A DNA stretch of 64,000 nt, from the NCBI GenBank assembly GCA_023255735.1, contig JAGDVP010000028.1, forward strand, positions 149,428-213,427, written 5' to 3'. The stretch is from Halothiobacillus sp. (GTDB lineage Bacteria > Pseudomonadota > Gammaproteobacteria > Halothiobacillales > Halothiobacillaceae). This document shows, in pieces, positions 1 through 10,539 of the stretch. The notes below the pieces were generated by a model that saw only the letters and a program-made list of their open reading frames with translations, was not told the origin of the DNA and did not search any database. The position numbers were made by a program, and so were the translations under genes. The number at the start of each line of letters is the position of its first letter. Positions within the stretch are counted from its first letter, which is position 1.

Positions 1-587
1 TTCAAAATGGCGCGTTGTTTACCGATTTAACGGCGGCGGACAACGTGGCTTTTCCGCTGCGTGAGCACACCCGACTGCCGCCGGCCTTAATTGCGCGAAT
101 TGTGGCGCTCAAGCTGCAAGCGGTGGGCTTGTTGGCCGCAGCCGACCAAATGCCCGCGGCATTATCGGGCGGCATGGCGCGGCGGGTGGCGTTGGCGCGC
201 GCGCTGGCGTTAGACCCTGAGCTCATGCTGTACGATGAACCGTTCACGGGTCAAGACCCCATTAATGTGGGCGTGCTGCTTCGGTTAATTGCTTCATTGA
301 ATCAAGCGCTGGGGTTAACCAGTGTGCTGGTATCGCACGATGTGGCCGAGGTGTTTGCCATCGCAGATTGTGTGTTCGTGATTAATGAGGGCCGAGTGGT
401 GGCTAAAGGCTCGCCCGATGAGCTGCGGGCGCAAATGCCGCACGTGCCTTTTTTGCGTCAGTTTCTTGAAGGGGCGCCGGATGATAATCAGTCGCAAGCC
501 AGCCAGCAATCGGCAAATTATTTGGCCAATGCATTAGGGTTAAAACCGCCCTCTGATAAGCGCTCAGCTTTAAGAGGCACCCGATGA
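1..587 (+). CDS. mlaF: MlaF, ATP-binding subunit of phospholipid ABC transporter (5' truncated)
   Basis: Cytoplasmic ATPase of the Mla phospholipid transporter, which drives lipid movement between the inner and outer membranes together with MlaE, MlaD and MlaB. The reading frame is open from base 3, so the gene begins outside the window and the Walker A motif is missing. Visible are the Q-loop region (FQNGALF), the ABC signature LSGGM followed by ARRVALARALA, the Walker B stretch LMLYDEPFTGQDP and the H-loop in VSHDV. A polar C-terminal tail rich in Gln, Ser and Ala follows the nucleotide-binding domain, as is common in MlaF. The stop codon overlaps the mlaE start by four bases (ATGA), which indicates translational coupling. 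The family is clear; only the N-terminus is unseen. Confidence 0.95.
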   Translation, partial: QNGALFTDLTAADNVAFPLREHTRLPPALIARIVALKLQAVGLLAAADQMPAALSGGMARRVALARALALDPELMLYDEPFTGQDPINVGVLLRLIASLNQALGLTSVLVSHDVAEVFAIADCVFVINEGRVVAKGSPDELRAQMPHVPFLRQFLEGAPDDNQSQASQQSANYLANALGLKPPSDKRSALRGTR

Positions 588-1384
588 ATCGCGTGCTCAC
601 TGCATTACTCAATGGCCTTGCTGCCTTGGGGCAGGGGGTTTTATCGGCGGCTGCCCACACCGGCCAGCTTACGTTGTTTATCCGGCAATTAATGGGGCGG
701 CTGATTCCCGCCTGGACTCGACCGAAGCTGATTGTGCAAGAAATTTATGCCATTGGTGTGTTGTCGTTGGTGATTATTGTAATCTCCGGTGGGTTTGTCG
801 GCCTGGTGTTGGGGCTGCAGGGCTTTAATATTTTATCTAAATTCAACGCGACTGAATCTCTTGGGGTTATGGTCGCCCTGTCTTTGGTGCGTGAGTTGGG
901 GCCGGTGGTGACCGCACTATTATTTGCCGGTCGCGCTGGTTCCGCGGTTACCGCTGAAATTGCGTTAATGAAAACCACCGAACAGCTTGCGGCCATGGAA
1001 ATGATGGCGGTAGATCCGCTTCGTCGTGTGATTGCGCCTAGGTTTTGGGGGGCGGTGATTGCGATGCCGCTGTTGGCCGGCCTATTCTCTTTGGTGGGGA
1101 TAGCGGGTGGTTATTTTATTGGTGTCGTGGTGCTGGGGGTCGATGCCGCCTCTTATTGGGGACAAATTCAGCAGCAAATGCAGCCCATGGATGACGTGAT
1201 GAATGGGGTCATTAAAAGTCTTGTTTTTGGTGTTGTCATTGGTTTAGTCGCTGTTTTTGAGGGCTTTAATGCGGAACCGACCTCTCTGGGTATTTCGCGG
1301 GCGACGACGCGAACCGTCGTTTTGAGCTCTTTATTGGTGCTGGGTTTAGATTTTATTTTGACCGCTTGGATGTTTGGGGCTTGA
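584..1384 (+). CDS. mlaE: MlaE, permease subunit of phospholipid ABC transporter
   Basis: Inner-membrane permease of the Mla system, which forms a dimer carrying two MlaF ATPases and an MlaD hexamer. The 266-residue length is typical. It contains several hydrophobic segments and the family's best conserved block, ELGPVVTALLFAGRAGSA followed by a TAEIALMKTTEQLAAMEMM coupling-helix region at about residues 105-145. The start overlaps the mlaF stop (ATGA) and mlaD follows directly after the stop. The gene is complete and nothing is unusual apart from its operon setting, where a TolC-family gene sits two genes downstream. Confidence 0.96.
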   Translation: MNRVLTALLNGLAALGQGVLSAAAHTGQLTLFIRQLMGRLIPAWTRPKLIVQEIYAIGVLSLVIIVISGGFVGLVLGLQGFNILSKFNATESLGVMVALSLVRELGPVVTALLFAGRAGSAVTAEIALMKTTEQLAAMEMMAVDPLRRVIAPRFWGAVIAMPLLAGLFSLVGIAGGYFIGVVVLGVDAASYWGQIQQQMQPMDDVMNGVIKSLVFGVVIGLVAVFEGFNAEPTSLGISRATTRTVVLSSLLVLGLDFILTAWMFGA

Positions 1385-1849
1385 ATGATGAATACGCAAC
1401 GGGGTATTGAAATTGTCGTCGGGGCTTTTGTGCTGGCAGGCATGCTTGCCTTGTTAGTACTGACGCTTAAATGGAGCGATTTCGGCACAAGTTCGGTGAG
1501 TGGCTATACGGTTAGTGCTCAATTCGACAATATTGGCGGCTTAACCGATCGCTCGCCCATTAAGCTTGCGGGGGTCACGATTGGCCGCGTATCGAGCATT
1601 CAAATTGATCCCAAAACCTTCGAGGCGGTGGTCACGATGGTGATTGGTAGCCAATATAATGATTTGCCTAAAGATTCTTTTGCGAGCATTTACACAGCGG
1701 GCTTGCTGGGGGCGCAATATATTGAAATTTCCCCCGGCGGTGATACCCAAGTGCTTAAAAATGGCGACAAAATCACCATGACCCAATCGGCCGTGGTGCT
1801 CGAAAAAATTATCTCCAAATTTCTCTTTAACAAGGCAGCAGAAAAATGA
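1385..1849 (+). CDS. mlaD: MlaD, MCE-domain periplasmic lipid-binding subunit
   Basis: Membrane-anchored MCE protein that forms a hexameric ring with a central hydrophobic pore for phospholipid. One N-terminal transmembrane helix lies at about residues 8-28, followed by the MCE domain at about 38-117 (FDNIGGLTDRSPIKLAGVTIG) and a short C-terminal amphipathic helix (SAVVLEKIISKFLF). At 154 residues it is the short, single-ring type, not a long needle type such as PqiB or LetB, so it cannot by itself span the periplasm. Two ATG codons occur in tandem at the start; the first abuts the mlaE stop. The stop overlaps the start of the following TolC-family gene by four bases. Confidence 0.95.
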   Translation: MMNTQRGIEIVVGAFVLAGMLALLVLTLKWSDFGTSSVSGYTVSAQFDNIGGLTDRSPIKLAGVTIGRVSSIQIDPKTFEAVVTMVIGSQYNDLPKDSFASIYTAGLLGAQYIEISPGGDTQVLKNGDKITMTQSAVVLEKIISKFLFNKAAEK

Positions 1850-3210
1850 AAAAGTCTTATCTTTTGCTTGTGATGCTCAGTGCCTTTAGTGCCGGCGCAG
1901 AGGCACAAACGGTTAACTTGCAGCAGGCGACCGACATGGCGATGAACGCCGATCCGCGCATTGAGGAGCAGCGCGCCAATGTCGCTGCGGCGCAAGCCTT
2001 AATTGCCCGGGTCGAGGGCGAGGGCGGCCTTCGGGCCAGCGTAAATTTATACGCCGCGCTCGCGCCTAAAGCGACGGACGGTATTTTTACCAATGGCAGC
2101 AATACCTGCGCTGCCGGCCAAAACTGCACGTTGCGCAGTGATGGCAATACCCTCAATGATGGGGTAACGGTGACATCGGGTATTACCGCTTCCATCATCA
2201 AGCCGCTGTATACCTTCGGTAAATTAGAAAATTACAAAACAGCGGCGCAATATAACAAACAGCTTAAATCAGATGAAGTGGCGCTGGCCAAAGGCCAAAC
2301 TTGGCTTACCGTTCGGCGGGCTTACTACGGCTATTTAACCGCTCGGGATACTCGGGCTTTTTTAGAGGGCGTGCGCACGCAATTGGCAGAATCGGAGCAG
2401 CCGATGAAGAAAAAAGCCGATGAAGGTAAAGCGGCCATGCGTGATGTGTATGCCTTAGAGAATGGCCTAGGCTTGCTTAATCGCTATATTGCAGAATCTG
2501 AAGGCGTTGAAAAGATTGCCTTAGATGGGCTGAAAACCATCATTGGTGTGCCATTAAATGACCCGCTCGAAGTGGCTGATGAGCACATAACACCCGTTAA
2601 AATGCCCGATGGCAGCATGGCGCACTATTCAAATCAGGCGTTGGCCGATCGCCCCGAGATGCACATGGCGCAATCGGGCTTAAGCGCGCTGCGCTCGTAT
2701 GTTGAGGCGCGTAAAGCCGAACGCTACCCTGATATTTATGCCGGCGTTGTAGCCACTGCGGCGTTCACGCCGGGGCGTCAACAAATTAATAACCCGTATA
2801 TTAACGATCCCTTGAATCAAGCGTTCGCCACGCCGGTGATTGGTATTAAGTGGGATTTCAACCCCGGCGTTTTGTCGGCCAATGTCAGCGGCGCCGAGGC
2901 GGATTTACGCGGCGCCGTGGCCAAAGCGCAGTTGGCTCAGGTGGGTATTCCGTTTCAAGTATCCCAAGCCTATCATTCGGTTCACGCGCTAGAAAAGCAA
3001 ATTACCGCGTTAGATCAGGCTCGTGTTGCAGCAAAACGCTGGATGATTTCAAGCTTTCTTGATTTTCAGGCAGGCTTAGTTGATGGCGGCACGCTTGGCA
3101 TGGCGGTGGCGGGCAATGTGTCCACTCAGGTTAATTATTTCAAGGCCTTAAACGACTTTAATATGCAAGTGGCTGAACTTAATGTTGCCACCGGAGATTA
3201 TCCTCAATGA
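1846..3210 (+). CDS. TolC-family outer-membrane channel protein inside the mla operon
   Basis: Predicted outer-membrane efflux-type protein (OEP/TolC fold). Residues 1-20 form a signal peptide ending AEA before Q21; there is no lipobox cysteine. The mature part has the two-repeat pattern of the family: helical stretches rich in Ala/Gln/Glu (about 25-60, 140-230, 270-300, 355-440) alternating with strand-rich parts such as ITASIIKPLYTFGKLE near residue 115. At 454 residues it is normal for the family. Unusually, it sits between mlaD and mlaC, and both junctions are ATGA overlaps, so it is made in step with the Mla proteins. No MlaA gene or periplasmic adaptor gene is nearby. A role as outer-membrane partner of the MCE complex is inference; a general efflux channel that happens to be co-transcribed is the alternative. 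Confidence 0.88.
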   Translation: MKKSYLLLVMLSAFSAGAEAQTVNLQQATDMAMNADPRIEEQRANVAAAQALIARVEGEGGLRASVNLYAALAPKATDGIFTNGSNTCAAGQNCTLRSDGNTLNDGVTVTSGITASIIKPLYTFGKLENYKTAAQYNKQLKSDEVALAKGQTWLTVRRAYYGYLTARDTRAFLEGVRTQLAESEQPMKKKADEGKAAMRDVYALENGLGLLNRYIAESEGVEKIALDGLKTIIGVPLNDPLEVADEHITPVKMPDGSMAHYSNQALADRPEMHMAQSGLSALRSYVEARKAERYPDIYAGVVATAAFTPGRQQINNPYINDPLNQAFATPVIGIKWDFNPGVLSANVSGAEADLRGAVAKAQLAQVGIPFQVSQAYHSVHALEKQITALDQARVAAKRWMISSFLDFQAGLVDGGTLGMAVAGNVSTQVNYFKALNDFNMQVAELNVATGDYPQ

Positions 3211-3863
3211 ACCGATCACAACTTGCCATTGCTCAGATGTTTTTACGCGCTCATTTAATCGCGGCGGCTTTATTTTTGGGCTTAACTGCTTTGCTGATTA
3301 CCCCCGCGCACGCGGATGCCCCCCCAAGTGCTGCCGCCGCCATGAATGCGGTGCAGCAAACAGCTGATTCGGTGATTCACGAAATTGCAGCCCAGCAAGC
3401 GCAAGTGAATAAAGATCCGGGTGCTTTGCTTGACATCGTAAAAAAGAAATTATTGCCGCAGGTGGATACTGATCGCATGAGTCGCTTGGTGCTGGGGCGC
3501 TATTGGCGCACGGCCTCCGCCGCACAAAAAACGGCATTTACCGATCAGTTTGCGCAACTGTTGGTTCGCACCTATGCAGGCCCGCTGTCAAAATTGGGGA
3601 ATCAAAAAATTACGGTAACGGGAACTAAGCCCGGCGCTGATTCTGATGAGCTGGTGGTTCAATCAGTTGTTTCAGGTGGCGACATGGGCTCGGTGCCGGT
3701 GGATTATCGAATGGCGCCAGTTGATGGCCAATGGAAAGCTTTTGATGTTGTGATTGACGGCATCAGCTTAATTAACAACTATCGAGGCAGTTTTGCGCAA
3801 GCGATTCAGCAAAAAGGTTTAGATAGCTTAATTCAAACGATGAAATCGCAAAATAATGGCTGA
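3207..3863 (+). CDS. mlaC: MlaC, periplasmic phospholipid shuttle
   Basis: Soluble periplasmic carrier that ferries phospholipid between the outer-membrane partner and MlaD. It has an N-terminal signal peptide with a long n-region and hydrophobic core, probably cleaved after PAHA near residue 36. The Ttg2D/MlaC domain follows, recognisable from LVRTYAGPLSKLGNQKI and the C-terminal VDGQWKAFDVVIDGISLINNYRGSF block. The length of 218 residues is standard. The start overlaps the upstream TolC-family stop (ATGA), and the stop overlaps the mlaB start by eight bases. Presence of MlaC beside a TolC-type protein is notable, since the canonical outer-membrane partner MlaA is not encoded here. Confidence 0.94.
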   Translation: MNRSQLAIAQMFLRAHLIAAALFLGLTALLITPAHADAPPSAAAAMNAVQQTADSVIHEIAAQQAQVNKDPGALLDIVKKKLLPQVDTDRMSRLVLGRYWRTASAAQKTAFTDQFAQLLVRTYAGPLSKLGNQKITVTGTKPGADSDELVVQSVVSGGDMGSVPVDYRMAPVDGQWKAFDVVIDGISLINNYRGSFAQAIQQKGLDSLIQTMKSQNNG

Positions 3864-4185
3864 ACCCGTCGCACATCCTTTGCTGCAAATTCGAACCGAG
3901 CCGGGTGTGGTGCGTCTGCAGGGTGACTTGTTGTGTGCTGCGATTGAGCCATTAAAAGAAATGAGCTTGCCCATGCCAGAAGGCCAAGGTGCCGGCTCAA
4001 GGCTTGAGATTGCGCTTGGGCAAATTACCGCCATGGATACCGCGGGTCTTGCTTTTTTAATTGGCTGGCAGGTCGAGGCAGCCGCACAATCCGTCACTCT
4101 GCGGTACACTCATCCCCCCAAAGCGATGCGTGCTATGGTGCAGGTCTATGGATTAGATGATTGGATGATCCTAGAAGGGGTTTAA
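3856..4185 (+). CDS. mlaB: MlaB, STAS-domain regulator of the MlaFE complex
   Basis: Small cytoplasmic STAS-domain protein that binds MlaF and is needed for assembly and activity of the Mla ATPase. The single domain spans nearly all 109 residues. The signature is AMDTAGLAFLIGWQ near residues 56-69, with the conserved Asp-Thr at the start of the helix, followed by an alternating strand-helix pattern to the end. It overlaps mlaC by eight bases and ends the recognised mla operon. The stop codon overlaps a possible 27-codon frame (TAATG). The call rests on STAS features plus position. Confidence 0.9.
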   Translation: MAEPVAHPLLQIRTEPGVVRLQGDLLCAAIEPLKEMSLPMPEGQGAGSRLEIALGQITAMDTAGLAFLIGWQVEAAAQSVTLRYTHPPKAMRAMVQVYGLDDWMILEGV

Positions 4186-4268
4186 TGTACCCAAGATGCA
4201 CGGGTGCGCCCAATCTGCCTGCATCGGAGCCACAACCCAAGGCCGCACCGCTTAATAAAACGTTTTAA
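4185..4268 (+). CDS. possible 27-residue peptide frame coupled to mlaB
   Basis: A short frame starts at the ATG that overlaps the mlaB stop (TAATG) and runs 27 codons before TAA. A purine-rich AGAAGGGG lies a few bases upstream and could serve as a ribosome-binding site. The peptide is rich in Pro and Ala, carries one Cys and is unlike any family I recognise. It ends 15 bases before murA. It may be an expressed leader peptide, a remnant of a lost gene (many relatives have a bolA-like gene here), or chance. Weak support only. Confidence 0.25.
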   Translation: MYPRCTGAPNLPASEPQPKAAPLNKTF

Positions 4269-4283
4269 CTAAAAGCAAATTGA

Positions 4284-5543
<1,260 letters not shown>

Positions 5544-5560
5544 AATTCAGACGCGCTATT

Positions 5561-6208
5561 ATGGCTAACCAAAATATCATTATCGCCCTCTCCAAAGGGC
5601 GCATTTTTAAAGACACACTGCCGCTTTTAGCGCATGTGGGCATCATCCCTCAAGATGACCCGGAAACCACGCGAAAGCTCATTCTTGATACCAATCATCC
5701 ACACATTAAATTGCTCATTTTGCGGGCCTCTGATGTGCCAACCTATGTGCAATATGGGGCCGCCGATTTGGGCGTGGCAGGCAAAGATGTGCTCATGGAG
5801 CATGGCGGAGAGGGGCTGTTTGAATTGCTGGATTTAAATATCGCCCGCTGCCGGTTGATGGTGGCAGGTCGGCCAGATGCGATGTTAAAAGCAGGGCGGC
5901 TTCGGGTGGCCACCAAATATACCCATTCGGCGGAATGTTATTTCGCTGAACAAGGCCGCCAAATTGAATTAATTAAATTGTATGGCTCCATGGAACTCGC
6001 CCCGCTCGTTGATTTGGCCGATTGTATTGTCGATGTCGTCGACACCGGCAATACCCTGCGCGCCAATGGGCTTGAACCCTTGTTGCCGATTGCGGATATT
6101 TCGTCGCGCTTAATTGTGAATCGTGCCGCACAAAAGCTTAAACATCACGTCATTGCCGATTTGGTAAAACAACTCGATAGGTATTTGCAGGCAGGTGCTC
6201 CTCAATGA
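5561..6208 (+). CDS. hisG: HisG, ATP phosphoribosyltransferase, short form
   Basis: Catalyses the first step of histidine synthesis, condensing ATP with PRPP. The protein is 215 residues and ends shortly after the second catalytic domain, so it lacks the C-terminal ACT-like regulatory domain of the long (about 300-residue) form. Short HisG proteins require the HisRS-like subunit HisZ for activity and feedback control; no hisZ is in this window. Recognisable segments are the N-terminal [18 protein letters not shown] and [13 protein letters not shown], the PRPP-binding loop. The stop overlaps the hisD start by four bases. Confidence 0.96.
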
Positions 6209-7506
6209 TTACTCGTTTGAATTCGGCCGATGCAGGGTTTGATGCCGCGCTGCTCAAACTGCTCGATTGGGCTAATGTGGCAGATGCCGGTGTGCAACAA
6301 ACCGTCGATGAAGTGATTCATGCCATCCGAACACGCAAAGACGCCGCTTTGCTGGAATACACCGCCAAGTTTGATCGGTTATCACTGCCCTCTGCAGACG
6401 CATTAGCCTTTACGGTTGAAGAAATTGATGCCGCCGTAGCCCGCACACCGGCGGCGTTGCTCACCGCGCTGCATCAAGCCGCCGAGCGGATTCGTGCTTA
6501 TGCCGAGCATCAAAAATTAACATCATGGTCTTACACCGAAGCGGATGGCACGGTGCTCGGGCAGCAAGTCACCGCGCTAGATCGGGTGGGGCTTTATGTG
6601 CCGGGCGGCAAAGCGGCGTACCCCTCATCGGTCTTAATGAACGCCATTCCGGCCAAAGTGGCTGGCGTGCGCGAACTCATCATGGTGGTGCCCACCCCCG
6701 ATGGCGTAGCGAACGATACGGTGCTTGCGGCCGCGCGTGTTGCCGGGGTTGATCGCATTTACCGGATTGGCGGCGCCCAAGCCATAGCCGCTTTGGCATA
6801 TGGCACCCAAACAATTCCCGCGGTGGATAAAATAGTAGGTCCTGGCAATAGCTATGTGGCGGCAGCGAAACGGGCTGTCTTTGGCAAAGTGGGCATTGAT
6901 ATGATCGCAGGCCCTTCAGAGATATTAATCGTGAGCGACGGCCACACCAATCCTGAATGGATTGCGATGGATTTATTTTCGCAGGCCGAGCACGATCAAC
7001 AAGCGCAAGCAATTTTAGTCTCCCCCGATGGCGCCTTTCTCGATAACGTGGCCAAGGCCATAGCTTCGCTCATTACCGAACAGCCACGCGCCGAAATAAT
7101 TCGCACTGCACTCGCCACGCGGGGCGCGTTAATTCAAGTGGCCGATTTAGATGAAGCCATTGCGCTCATTAACACCATAGCCCCTGAACATTTAGAACTA
7201 TCATTTGATAAGGCAGCCGATCGGGTAACTGAAATTCGTCATGCGGGGGCGATTTTTGTCGGTAAATATACGGCAGAGGCACTGGGCGATTATTGCGCGG
7301 GGCCTAATCATGTTTTGCCCACTTCGGGCACGGCGCGATTCTCCTCGCCGTTAGGGGTTTACGATTTTCAAAAACGCTCCAGTATGATTCATGCCTCAGC
7401 TTTGGGCAGCAAAACACTCGGCGAGATGGCCATGGTGTTGGCCGAGGCTGAAGGCTTGCACGCGCATGGCCAATCGGCTCGTTATCGTGTTGAAAGCAAT
7501 CGTTAA
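6205..7506 (+). CDS. hisD: HisD, histidinol dehydrogenase
   Basis: Zinc enzyme that performs the last two oxidations of histidine synthesis, from L-histidinol to L-histidine with NAD. At 433 residues it matches the family length. The signature block [12 protein letters not shown] is followed by [13 protein letters not shown], which supplies the zinc-ligand Gln and His, and by IAPEHLEL and [14 protein letters not shown] near the C-terminus. The start overlaps the hisG stop (ATGA) and hisC follows after 32 bases, so hisG, hisD and hisC form one transcription unit. Confidence 0.97.
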
Positions 7507-7538
7507 ACTTAAGCGAACTTTATCGCAAAGGATCGGGT

Positions 7539-8615
7539 ATGAACTCTCCCTTATGGTCGAACGTTGTCACTCAACTCACGCCCTATGTGCCCGGCGAGCA
7601 GCCGGCGGGCGTTGGGCTGGTTAAGCTTAATACCAACGAAAATCCCTACGGCCCCTCGCCCAAAGTGGTTGCGGCCATCGCTTCTGCGCTAGATGATTCG
7701 CTTAGGCTGTATCCTGATCCCACTGCCAGCAAGTTACGTGAAACCATCGCCACTTATTATCAATTAACCCCTGAACAAGTTTTTGTCGGCAATGGATCGG
7801 ATGAGGTGTTGGCCTTTGTCTTTCAAGGTTTATTAGCCCACGGCCGCCCGATTTTATTTCCGGATATCAGTTACAGTTTTTACCCCGTTTACTGCCAGTT
7901 GTATGGTATTGAATTTCAAACCATGGCCCTAGATGAACACTTAAACATTCAAGTGGCTGATTATATTTCACCGCAATTACCAGCCATTGGCGGCATTATT
8001 TTTCCTAACCCAAATGCACCAACCGGCCGCGTATTACCACTTGATGCGATAGAAGAAATTATTAAAGCGCATCCGAATACTGTTGTTGTCATTGATGAGG
8101 CCTATATTGATTTTGGCGGTGAAACAGCCATACCGCTCATCGCACGTTATTCTAATGTACTGATAACGCAATCATTATCAAAATCACGCGCACTCGCAGG
8201 CTTGCGGGTAGGGCTGGCGCTCGGGCATCCATTGCTGATTGAAGCGTTAGTGCGTATTAAAGACAGTTTTAACTCCTATCCGCTTGATCGGTTAGCGTTG
8301 GCAGGTGCCACCGCGGCATTTGAGGATCAAGATTATTTTTTAACAACCTGCGCAAAAATTATTCGTGAACGAGCCCTATTAACGCAAGCGTTAAGTGAGC
8401 GCGGATTTAATGTATTACCTTCGGGCGCTAATTTCTTATTCGTGACCCATAAGCACCAATCAGGGCTGGGCTTATATCAAGGTTTGCGCGCGCAAAATGT
8501 CATCGTTCGGCATTTTAATAAACCCAGAATTAATGAATACCTGCGAATTACAATCGGCACCCCAAAAGAAAATGCCGCCTTGTTGGCCGCGCTTGATGTC
8601 TTACTTGCGGCATGA
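7539..8615 (+). CDS. hisC: HisC, histidinol-phosphate aminotransferase
   Basis: PLP-dependent class I/II aminotransferase of histidine synthesis, converting imidazole acetol phosphate to histidinol phosphate. Visible landmarks are [14 protein letters not shown] near the N-terminus, [25 protein letters not shown] (the Asp contacting the PLP ring) and the PLP-lysine motif [16 protein letters not shown]. The 358-residue length is normal. It is the last gene of the local his cluster; hisB and the remaining his genes are not in the window. The start has a GGATCGGGT purine stretch a few bases upstream. Confidence 0.96.
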
Positions 8616-8700
8616 TGCACGCGCGTATAGCCATAGGGTATGAGTTATGGTATTGTTTAACTCCATTTTTTATTCAAAAGATGGTTTCTATGGTGTTCCG

Positions 8701-8806
<106 letters not shown>

Positions 8807-8844
8807 TCATTCTCCAATTTCCCTCTCAGCGTGGATATTCCGGC

Positions 8845-10539
8845 ATGAGCTATCTCGTCCTTGCGCGCAAATGGCGCCCGAAAAGCTTTGCGCAAATGGT
8901 AGGGCAGGGGCATGTACTCCAGGCTTTAACCAATGCGCTCGACAAGAGCCGCTTGCACCATGCCTATTTATTCACCGGTACGCGCGGCGTGGGTAAAACA
9001 ACCGTTGCCCGCATTTTTGCGAAAGCGTTAAATTGCGAACAAGGCATTTCAAGCACGCCCTGCGGCGTGTGCAATGCCTGTGTTGAAATTGACCAAGGCC
9101 GGTTTGTTGATTTAATCGAGGTGGATGCCGCCTCGCGCACAGGCGTAGACGATACGCGGGAATTACTCGATAACATAGCGTACGCTCCCGTGCGAGGCCG
9201 CTTTAAAATCTACTTGATTGACGAAGTGCATATGTTTTCAAAATCAAGCTTTAACGCCTTATTAAAAACCCTGGAAGAACCGCCGGAACACGTTAAATTT
9301 TTGCTGGCAACAACAGATCCGCAAAAATTACCCGTGACCGTATTATCTCGTTGCCTGCAGTTTAATTTACGCGCGTTGCCGGTCACGCAAATTCAGGCCC
9401 ATTTGGCCGATGTACTCCTACGTGAGCAAATGAAGGCAGAACCAGCGGGATTAAATCTCATTGCCGAAGCCGCTAATGGCTCCATGCGGGATGCGTTGAG
9501 TTTGCTAGATCAAGCTATTGCATTTACGGGCGGAAATCTTAACTCAACTCAAATAAGCCAAATTTTAGGTTTGAGCGATCATCATTTAGTCTGGGCGATG
9601 ATCGAAGCACTTGCCGAAGAACAGGCCGATCGCTTGTTTCAATGTGTTGAAGAGGCATTAGATCGCGCTGTTGAGCCTGTGATTTTGCTCACACAGTTAA
9701 TTGAAGCACTCCACCAATTGTCCTTGCAGCAATGGGTTGCAAGCACGCCCAGCCTGATGCAACTACCCGATACCATTCACCAAATTGATGCAGAGACATT
9801 GCAGCTGTGGTACCAAATTGCTGGAACGGGGCGGCGTGATATGGCTTGGGCACCTAATGCCCGCATTGGGCTTGAAATGACCTTACTACGTATGCTGGCC
9901 TTCGCCCCCATCAAGCCAGATAGCTCGATGAATCAGGCTCGCGCAAATCAAGCCCACATAACTCAAACTACGGAAGAAGCCCGTGCCCGCCCACCGCAAG
10001 CGCAAGGGGTGTCTGAGGTCAGTCTGCCGCCCAAACAAGCATTATCCGAGCGTACGGATAAAGCGCCAGAACTTAATGCAGCGGAACTAACTCCCCATTT
10101 ACTGCGAGAAATTAACGATGAGCAATGGCATGCCCTTGTTGATCGAATACGAGTGGGTGCAGCACGGTCGCTTGCTAGTAACTGCCATGTGCAAATGAGC
10201 AATGGACAAATTCAACTCATATTCGCTCCTGAATTTGAAGCGGTAGCCAGCCCGAAAACGAAAGAGAGTCTCCTTAATCAGTTAGCTGATGTATTGGATG
10301 TTCAAAACGTAAAATTCATAATGGCAACAAAATCTGAATGTGCGCCAAGTCCTGGCACGCTTCAAGCAAAGCGCACACCCGCTGAACGAAAAAGCTTAAT
10401 CGAACAAAATAGCCAAAAACAGCGAAAAGAGTCTATCTTGCAACATCCCGCAGTCGGTGTTTTACAGGCAAAAGCTTCTGCGGTTCTTGTAGAAGAAAGT
10501 ATTACAGCAATAGATGATTCAGAACTTAACTTAAACTAA
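8845..10539 (+). CDS. dnaX: DnaX, DNA polymerase III tau/gamma subunit
   Basis: Clamp-loader ATPase subunit that assembles the polymerase III holoenzyme. The N-terminal AAA+ module carries Walker A GTRGVGKTT near residue 45, a zinc-binding cysteine set (C-x8-C-x2-C-x2-C, in NCEQGISSTPCGVCNAC) and the Walker B/DEXH-type LIDEVHMFS. Domain III follows to about residue 365, then a Gln/Lys-rich tau-specific C-terminal part. At 564 residues it is a full tau-length product. I see no convincing A-AAA-AAG slippery heptamer, so production of a short gamma form by frameshifting is not supported. It follows ffs and precedes ybaB and recR. Confidence 0.96.
   Translation: MSYLVLARKWRPKSFAQMVGQGHVLQALTNALDKSRLHHAYLFTGTRGVGKTTVARIFAKALNCEQGISSTPCGVCNACVEIDQGRFVDLIEVDAASRTGVDDTRELLDNIAYAPVRGRFKIYLIDEVHMFSKSSFNALLKTLEEPPEHVKFLLATTDPQKLPVTVLSRCLQFNLRALPVTQIQAHLADVLLREQMKAEPAGLNLIAEAANGSMRDALSLLDQAIAFTGGNLNSTQISQILGLSDHHLVWAMIEALAEEQADRLFQCVEEALDRAVEPVILLTQLIEALHQLSLQQWVASTPSLMQLPDTIHQIDAETLQLWYQIAGTGRRDMAWAPNARIGLEMTLLRMLAFAPIKPDSSMNQARANQAHITQTTEEARARPPQAQGVSEVSLPPKQALSERTDKAPELNAAELTPHLLREINDEQWHALVDRIRVGAARSLASNCHVQMSNGQIQLIFAPEFEAVASPKTKESLLNQLADVLDVQNVKFIMATKSECAPSPGTLQAKRTPAERKSLIEQNSQKQRKESILQHPAVGVLQAKASAVLVEESITAIDDSELNLN

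Follow-up and report, generated by a model that had tools for sequence, protein, structure and literature searches.

A TolC-family channel gene between mlaD and mlaC: a probable replacement for MlaA in the Mla system

In the Mla pathway, MlaA is regarded as the gateway at the outer membrane. In the Escherichia coli system (MlaFEDB-MlaC-MlaA/OmpC), the carrier MlaC uses overlapping surfaces to bind MlaA and MlaD (PMC10245069, PMC10719372). Other arrangements have been described. Veillonella parvula carries mlaEFD-tolC-tamB without MlaA or MlaC, and the accessible part of the account assigns its tolC no Mla role (PMC10665443). The Brucella Mpc system is a chimera of Mla and Pqi (PMC12436622), and Anabaena employs the TolC homologue HgdD together with DevBCA in glycolipid export (PMC6161253). 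TolC is not mentioned in a review of MlaA (PMC11131202). Our literature search, which took in few subscription papers and no bioRxiv preprints, found no description of an mlaD-TolC-mlaC arrangement, Veillonella being the sole mla-tolC linkage.

The locus examined here lies in 64,000 nucleotides of Halothiobacillus sp. DNA (the window). It shares mlaF, mlaE, mlaD, mlaC and an mlaB-like gene with E. coli, in the same order and next to murA (L189), and MlaC is kept; however, MlaA is missing and a TolC-family gene separates mlaD from mlaC, whereas in E. coli these two genes adjoin. The Veillonella operon likewise has a tolC homologue directly after mlaD and no MlaA, but it combines a long, barrel-ended MlaD with the lack of MlaC, whereas the window encodes a short MlaD and an MlaC. 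Brucella Mpc resembles the present locus in being a transporter of the Mla type whose outer-membrane part is not MlaA, and differs in its needle-like MCE protein, its PqiC-like lipoprotein and the absence of MlaC. A second MCE system in the Halothiobacillus genome (L174:1360-5143; G000:C4 about 105359-109142) resembles Mpc and consists of a MlaE-like permease (394 aa), an ATPase, a 332-aa MCE protein and an ABC_trans_aux (PqiC-like) lipoprotein. Finally, HgdD-DevBCA also places a TolC homologue in lipid transport, but with a classical ABC pump and a membrane fusion protein, and for export only.

Organization of the operon

The window opens within the mla operon, and all of its features described below are on the forward strand. 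The open reading frames give mlaFED, the TolC-family gene, mlaC and the mlaB-like gene, followed by murA, hisG and hisD. The ABC ATPase gene mlaF (3..587) is an open-ended frame truncated at its 5' end by the window start and is assigned through MlaF matches in related loci. The permease gene mlaE (584..1384, 266 aa) matches PF02405 with 240 bits and NF033619 with 378 bits, over the cut-off. The product of mlaD (1385..1849) has 154 residues and one MCE domain (PF02470; TIGR04430, 183 bits against a cut-off of 135), bearing out the short single-ring MlaD of an earlier, sequence-only reading of this DNA. The TolC-family gene (1846..3210, 454 aa) occupies the MlaA slot and is identified by an OEP match (PF02321, 76 bits, cut-off 22), an AF2 model and Foldseek. 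The periplasmic lipid carrier gene mlaC (3207..3863, 218 aa) matches PF05494 with 178 bits; against more specific models its product scores about equally, with 93 bits for HpnM and 90 bits for MlaC, each under the cut-off. The mlaB-like STAS gene (3856..4185, 109 aa) exceeds the cut-off for STAS_2 (PF13466, 61 bits) and reaches 25 bits for NF033618, for which the cut-off is 90.

Both junctions of the TolC-family gene are ATGA overlaps, the first joining the mlaD stop to the TolC start (1846-1849) and the other the TolC stop to the mlaC start (3207-3210). The coupling to both neighbors inside an mlaFED-CB order had been proposed from the letters and is borne out by the DNA, the reading frames and the family matches. 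The window junctions were read directly, whereas junction statistics for other loci choose whichever start codon lies closest to the stop, which exaggerates overlaps. No adaptor (membrane fusion) gene is present among the window genes of this neighborhood (1-10539), and the ORF list shows no ABC-2 exporter pair in the window operon.

Fold, phylogeny and conservation of the channel

OEP domains (PF02321) are found in all 59 Mla-linked TolC members, and the AF2 model (59 sequences) has the shape of a TolC protomer with a pLDDT of 88.5. All 44 significant Foldseek matches to the model are TolC, OprM, CusC and their relatives, with top TM scores of 0.71-0.78, while a sequence search of the PDB returned no relatives. 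The N-terminus resembles a type I signal peptide and has no lipobox. A family tree against efflux TolC, suggested in the sequence-only reading, sets the Mla-linked group apart from 10 other OEPs of this genome and from TolC and CusC of E. coli; the separating branch is moderately supported (79/91) and recurs in 88% of bootstrap trees. The genome's own efflux TolC (L136) groups with E. coli TolC (99/96).

The protein shares the PF02321 domain and the fold with TolC, OprM and CusC of efflux and secretion, but differs in having no adjoining adaptor gene, in the loss of the tip signatures and in a conserved extracellular loop 2. Periplasmic tip 1 (residues 186-203; 2401..2454) has lost GLVAITDV and contains an insertion of one to three residues in most homologues. 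Similarly, VGTRTxVDV is replaced in tip 2 (residues 401-420; 3046..3105), which is preceded by near-invariant R398 and W399. The extracellular loops are predicted from the AF2 model and TolC topology. Loop 1 (residues 75-106; 2068..2163) contains R97 and D99, and loop 2 (residues 308-324; 2767..2817) carries the motif GRxxxNNPYIxDPLN with R311; these three residues are invariant across the 59 sequences. A cysteine pair in loop 1 (C88 and C94; 2107-2127) is kept in many, though not all, members.

The two kinds of channel also distribute their conservation differently over these four regions. Across seven orthologues of efflux TolC, conservation is highest in the tips (z 0.67 and 0.85) and loop 2 is variable (z -0.65), whereas the Mla-linked group has its highest conservation in loop 2 (z 0.49) and its lowest in tip 1 (z -0.45). 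Another, unrelated OEP group gives a mixed pattern (z 0.77 for loop 1 and 0.44 for tip 2).

Distribution of the TolC gene and of MlaA

Orthologues of the window TolC, at 42-95% identity, were found in each of the 27 family genomes examined and in two others of the class. The order mlaE-mlaD-TolC-mlaC is present in 25 of 25 family loci checked and in nearly all of 110 further loci (about 135 in total), indicating that the arrangement is not due to chance. One locus (L125, G116) appears to have two MlaD stretches in tandem between mlaE and TolC. In a sample of 369 genomes of the class, strong TolC matches occur in 45 genomes from 21 families, nearly always between mlaD and mlaC. TolC in the mla operon is therefore not a strain oddity. 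The named carriers include Halothiobacillus, Guyparkeria, Thiobacillus, Sulfuriferula, Sulfuricella and Sideroxydans, and there are MAGs labeled Chromatiaceae, Ectothiorhodospiraceae and Thiotrichaceae. Most named carriers (L026-L105) are sulfur or iron chemolithotrophs, which may merely follow phylogeny. Outside the class but within the phylum, distant versions with 26-31% identity occupy the same slot (L181-L183); another distant homologue of 444 aa (L184, G547) has its context clipped by a contig end. A search for plasmid-borne relatives found none.

MlaA (PF04333) was detected neither in this genome nor in 26 family relatives, several of which are single-contig genomes. The same search finds it in 22 of 30 other class genomes of the first sample and in 286 of the 369 class genomes. 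It was also absent from the other-class carriers G392, G432 and G470, and from G684. Among MlaC-containing genomes of the class sample, in which some assemblies are fragmentary, MlaA accompanies 4 of 45 with TolC versus 277 of 297 without it (Fisher p 4e-33, a statistic that ignores relatedness). Both proteins are encoded in G109, G127, G154 and G222, and 20 MlaC-containing genomes have neither. A tree built from concatenated MlaE, MlaD and MlaC implies about 8 changes of the TolC state (7-9 across bootstrap replicates), no fewer than 3 of them on firm branches. Independent pairs over all branches give 6.6 in the expected direction against 0.1 in the opposite one (median p 0.016); firm branches yield 3 pairs, of which 2.8 agree, too few for significance. 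The tree of MlaC by itself is poorly resolved.

The position of the gene adds to this picture. In the sampled MlaA genomes mlaD and mlaC usually adjoin, as in E. coli. In three loci (L166, L167 and L231), however, the MlaA gene itself lies between them, with an ATGA overlap to mlaC in L167; the outer-membrane partner slot is the same as in the window, but it holds a lipoprotein there and a TolC-family channel here. L231 belongs to genome G330 of family f76, and two genomes of the same family, G101 and G228, carry TolC without MlaA. Outer-membrane partners have been exchanged here at one operon position.

These results divide the original suggestion that TolC replaces or adds to MlaA. Replacement is supported by the absence of MlaA, the complementary distribution and the common slot; addition is not, as both occur together in only 4 of 45 TolC genomes. 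The sequence-only reading would have given way to a position within a pure drug-efflux clade combined with occurrence in a single strain, a normal mlaA elsewhere and no predicted interface with Mla proteins; the first three of these were looked for, and none was found. It had also proposed to search other genomes for TolC genes between mlaD and mlaC and for a lack of mlaA: the gene occurs in 21 families, nearly always in that slot, and 41 of the 45 TolC genomes lack MlaA.

MlaC as the likely partner, and competing readings

Two MAG-like genomes, G290 (97% complete) and G385 (92%), contain a TolC-mlaC pair, and no MlaE, MCE protein or MlaA was found in either. Two named MAGs (L089 and L096) show the same layout with an ATGA overlap. 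In L173, two genes part mlaD from TolC, but the overlap of TolC with mlaC is retained. Since the pair survives without MlaFED, an MCE protein or MlaA, the closest partner of the Mla-linked TolC seems to be MlaC; in G290 and G385 it might do another job. Partial correlations of TolC distances given MurA are 0.77 for MlaC, 0.75 for MlaE, 0.73 for MlaD and 0.69 for MlaF, the differences between partners being small. The surfaces by which MlaC binds MlaA and MlaD are broadly kept in the TolC-type system, and at the known MlaA-contact positions (K84, R90, V171 and S172) TolC genomes are not clearly separated from MlaA genomes. A hairpin near E. coli P144/P145 reads QPGGFPIPIDY in TolC genomes versus GGPxIPINY in MlaA genomes, a suggestive difference that is confounded by relatedness. 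L224 (G233, 87% complete) has a MlaC with a TolC-type hairpin, GGYPIPINY, and neither MlaA nor a Mla-linked TolC was found there.

We consider it probable that a dedicated TolC-family trimeric channel has taken over from MlaA as the Mla system's partner in the outer membrane. This reading is based on the operon and its conservation, the absence of MlaA, the complementary distribution, the common slot, the lone TolC-MlaC pair, the fold, and the changes in tips and loops. The lack of MlaA, together with a divergent TolC in its operon place, points to a second way of docking Mla to the outer membrane. MlaC most likely docks on the TolC-type channel instead of MlaA, and the evidence favors MlaC handing lipid over as a shuttle. 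The short MlaD hexamer, seated on MlaFE(B), would exchange lipid with soluble MlaC in the E. coli manner, and at the outer membrane MlaC would meet the TolC-type protein, presumably by direct contact, in place of MlaA-porin. The cargo would be phospholipid, taken from the outer leaflet, perhaps via R97 and R311, and returned to the inner membrane. Conservation of the surface loops suggests that recognition takes place at the outer leaflet, in keeping with such retrograde removal. Against the replacement reading stand the four genomes that have both partners and the 20 with neither; the interior of known TolC relatives is moreover hydrophilic, and this counts against its lipid-passage part. It is also possible, if doubtful, that TolC and MlaC form an autonomous outer-membrane lipid module, in which the trimer loops recognize outer-leaflet lipid and trade it with MlaC without an adaptor and, in some genomes, without the MCE/ABC transporter.

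A continuous conduit, in which the MlaD hexamer docks on the TolC tip like an efflux adaptor and an MlaFED-TolC tunnel carries the lipid, helped by MlaC, appears quite improbable. The symmetry of an MCE hexamer is compatible with that of a TolC trimer, and both the mlaD/TolC ATGA overlap and the correlation of TolC with MlaD distances would suit such a complex. Nevertheless, MlaD has no extension beyond its 154 residues, MlaC is always kept, and the TolC-mlaC pair persists without any MCE protein and with mlaD two genes away (L173). A direct MlaD-TolC tunnel is not favored, since this MlaD is short and the pair can be kept without it. With the adaptor-docking tip sequence altered and tip 1 poorly conserved as well, the periplasm-spanning MCE-TolC route first envisaged for this locus is not supported. 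An extra exit alongside a normal MlaA pathway could be imagined for the four genomes that encode both proteins, but the lack of MlaA from the other 41 TolC genomes, complete single-contig ones included, makes it very improbable.

The channel could instead share only an operon with Mla and export some other cargo or serve some other machine (drug efflux, a downstream ABC-2 exporter, hopanoids or sulfur compounds). TolC relatives do work in efflux and secretion, three loci have an ABC-2 pair downstream of mlaB (L175:6917-8609, L173:1424-3123 and L167:6144-7822), the window MlaC scores about equally as HpnM and as MlaC with both under the cut-off, and carriers are mostly sulfur or iron oxidizers. 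We nonetheless regard such a duct as unlikely: no adaptor gene adjoins, the window operon has no ABC-2 pair, the efflux tip signatures are lost, the protein is separate from this genome's efflux TolC, and the exclusion with MlaA would be left to be explained. An efflux hitchhiker as first choice is ruled out by the complementary distribution and the OEP tree.

If the replacement of MlaA holds true in many proteobacterial families, TolC proteins would have an adaptor-free role in lipid transport that is so far undescribed. One carrier would then have two unrelated outer-membrane partners, and the direction of Mla transport and the hand-off step could be tested by comparing them. Genomes that possess only TolC and MlaC would represent a natural deletion of the inner-membrane pump.
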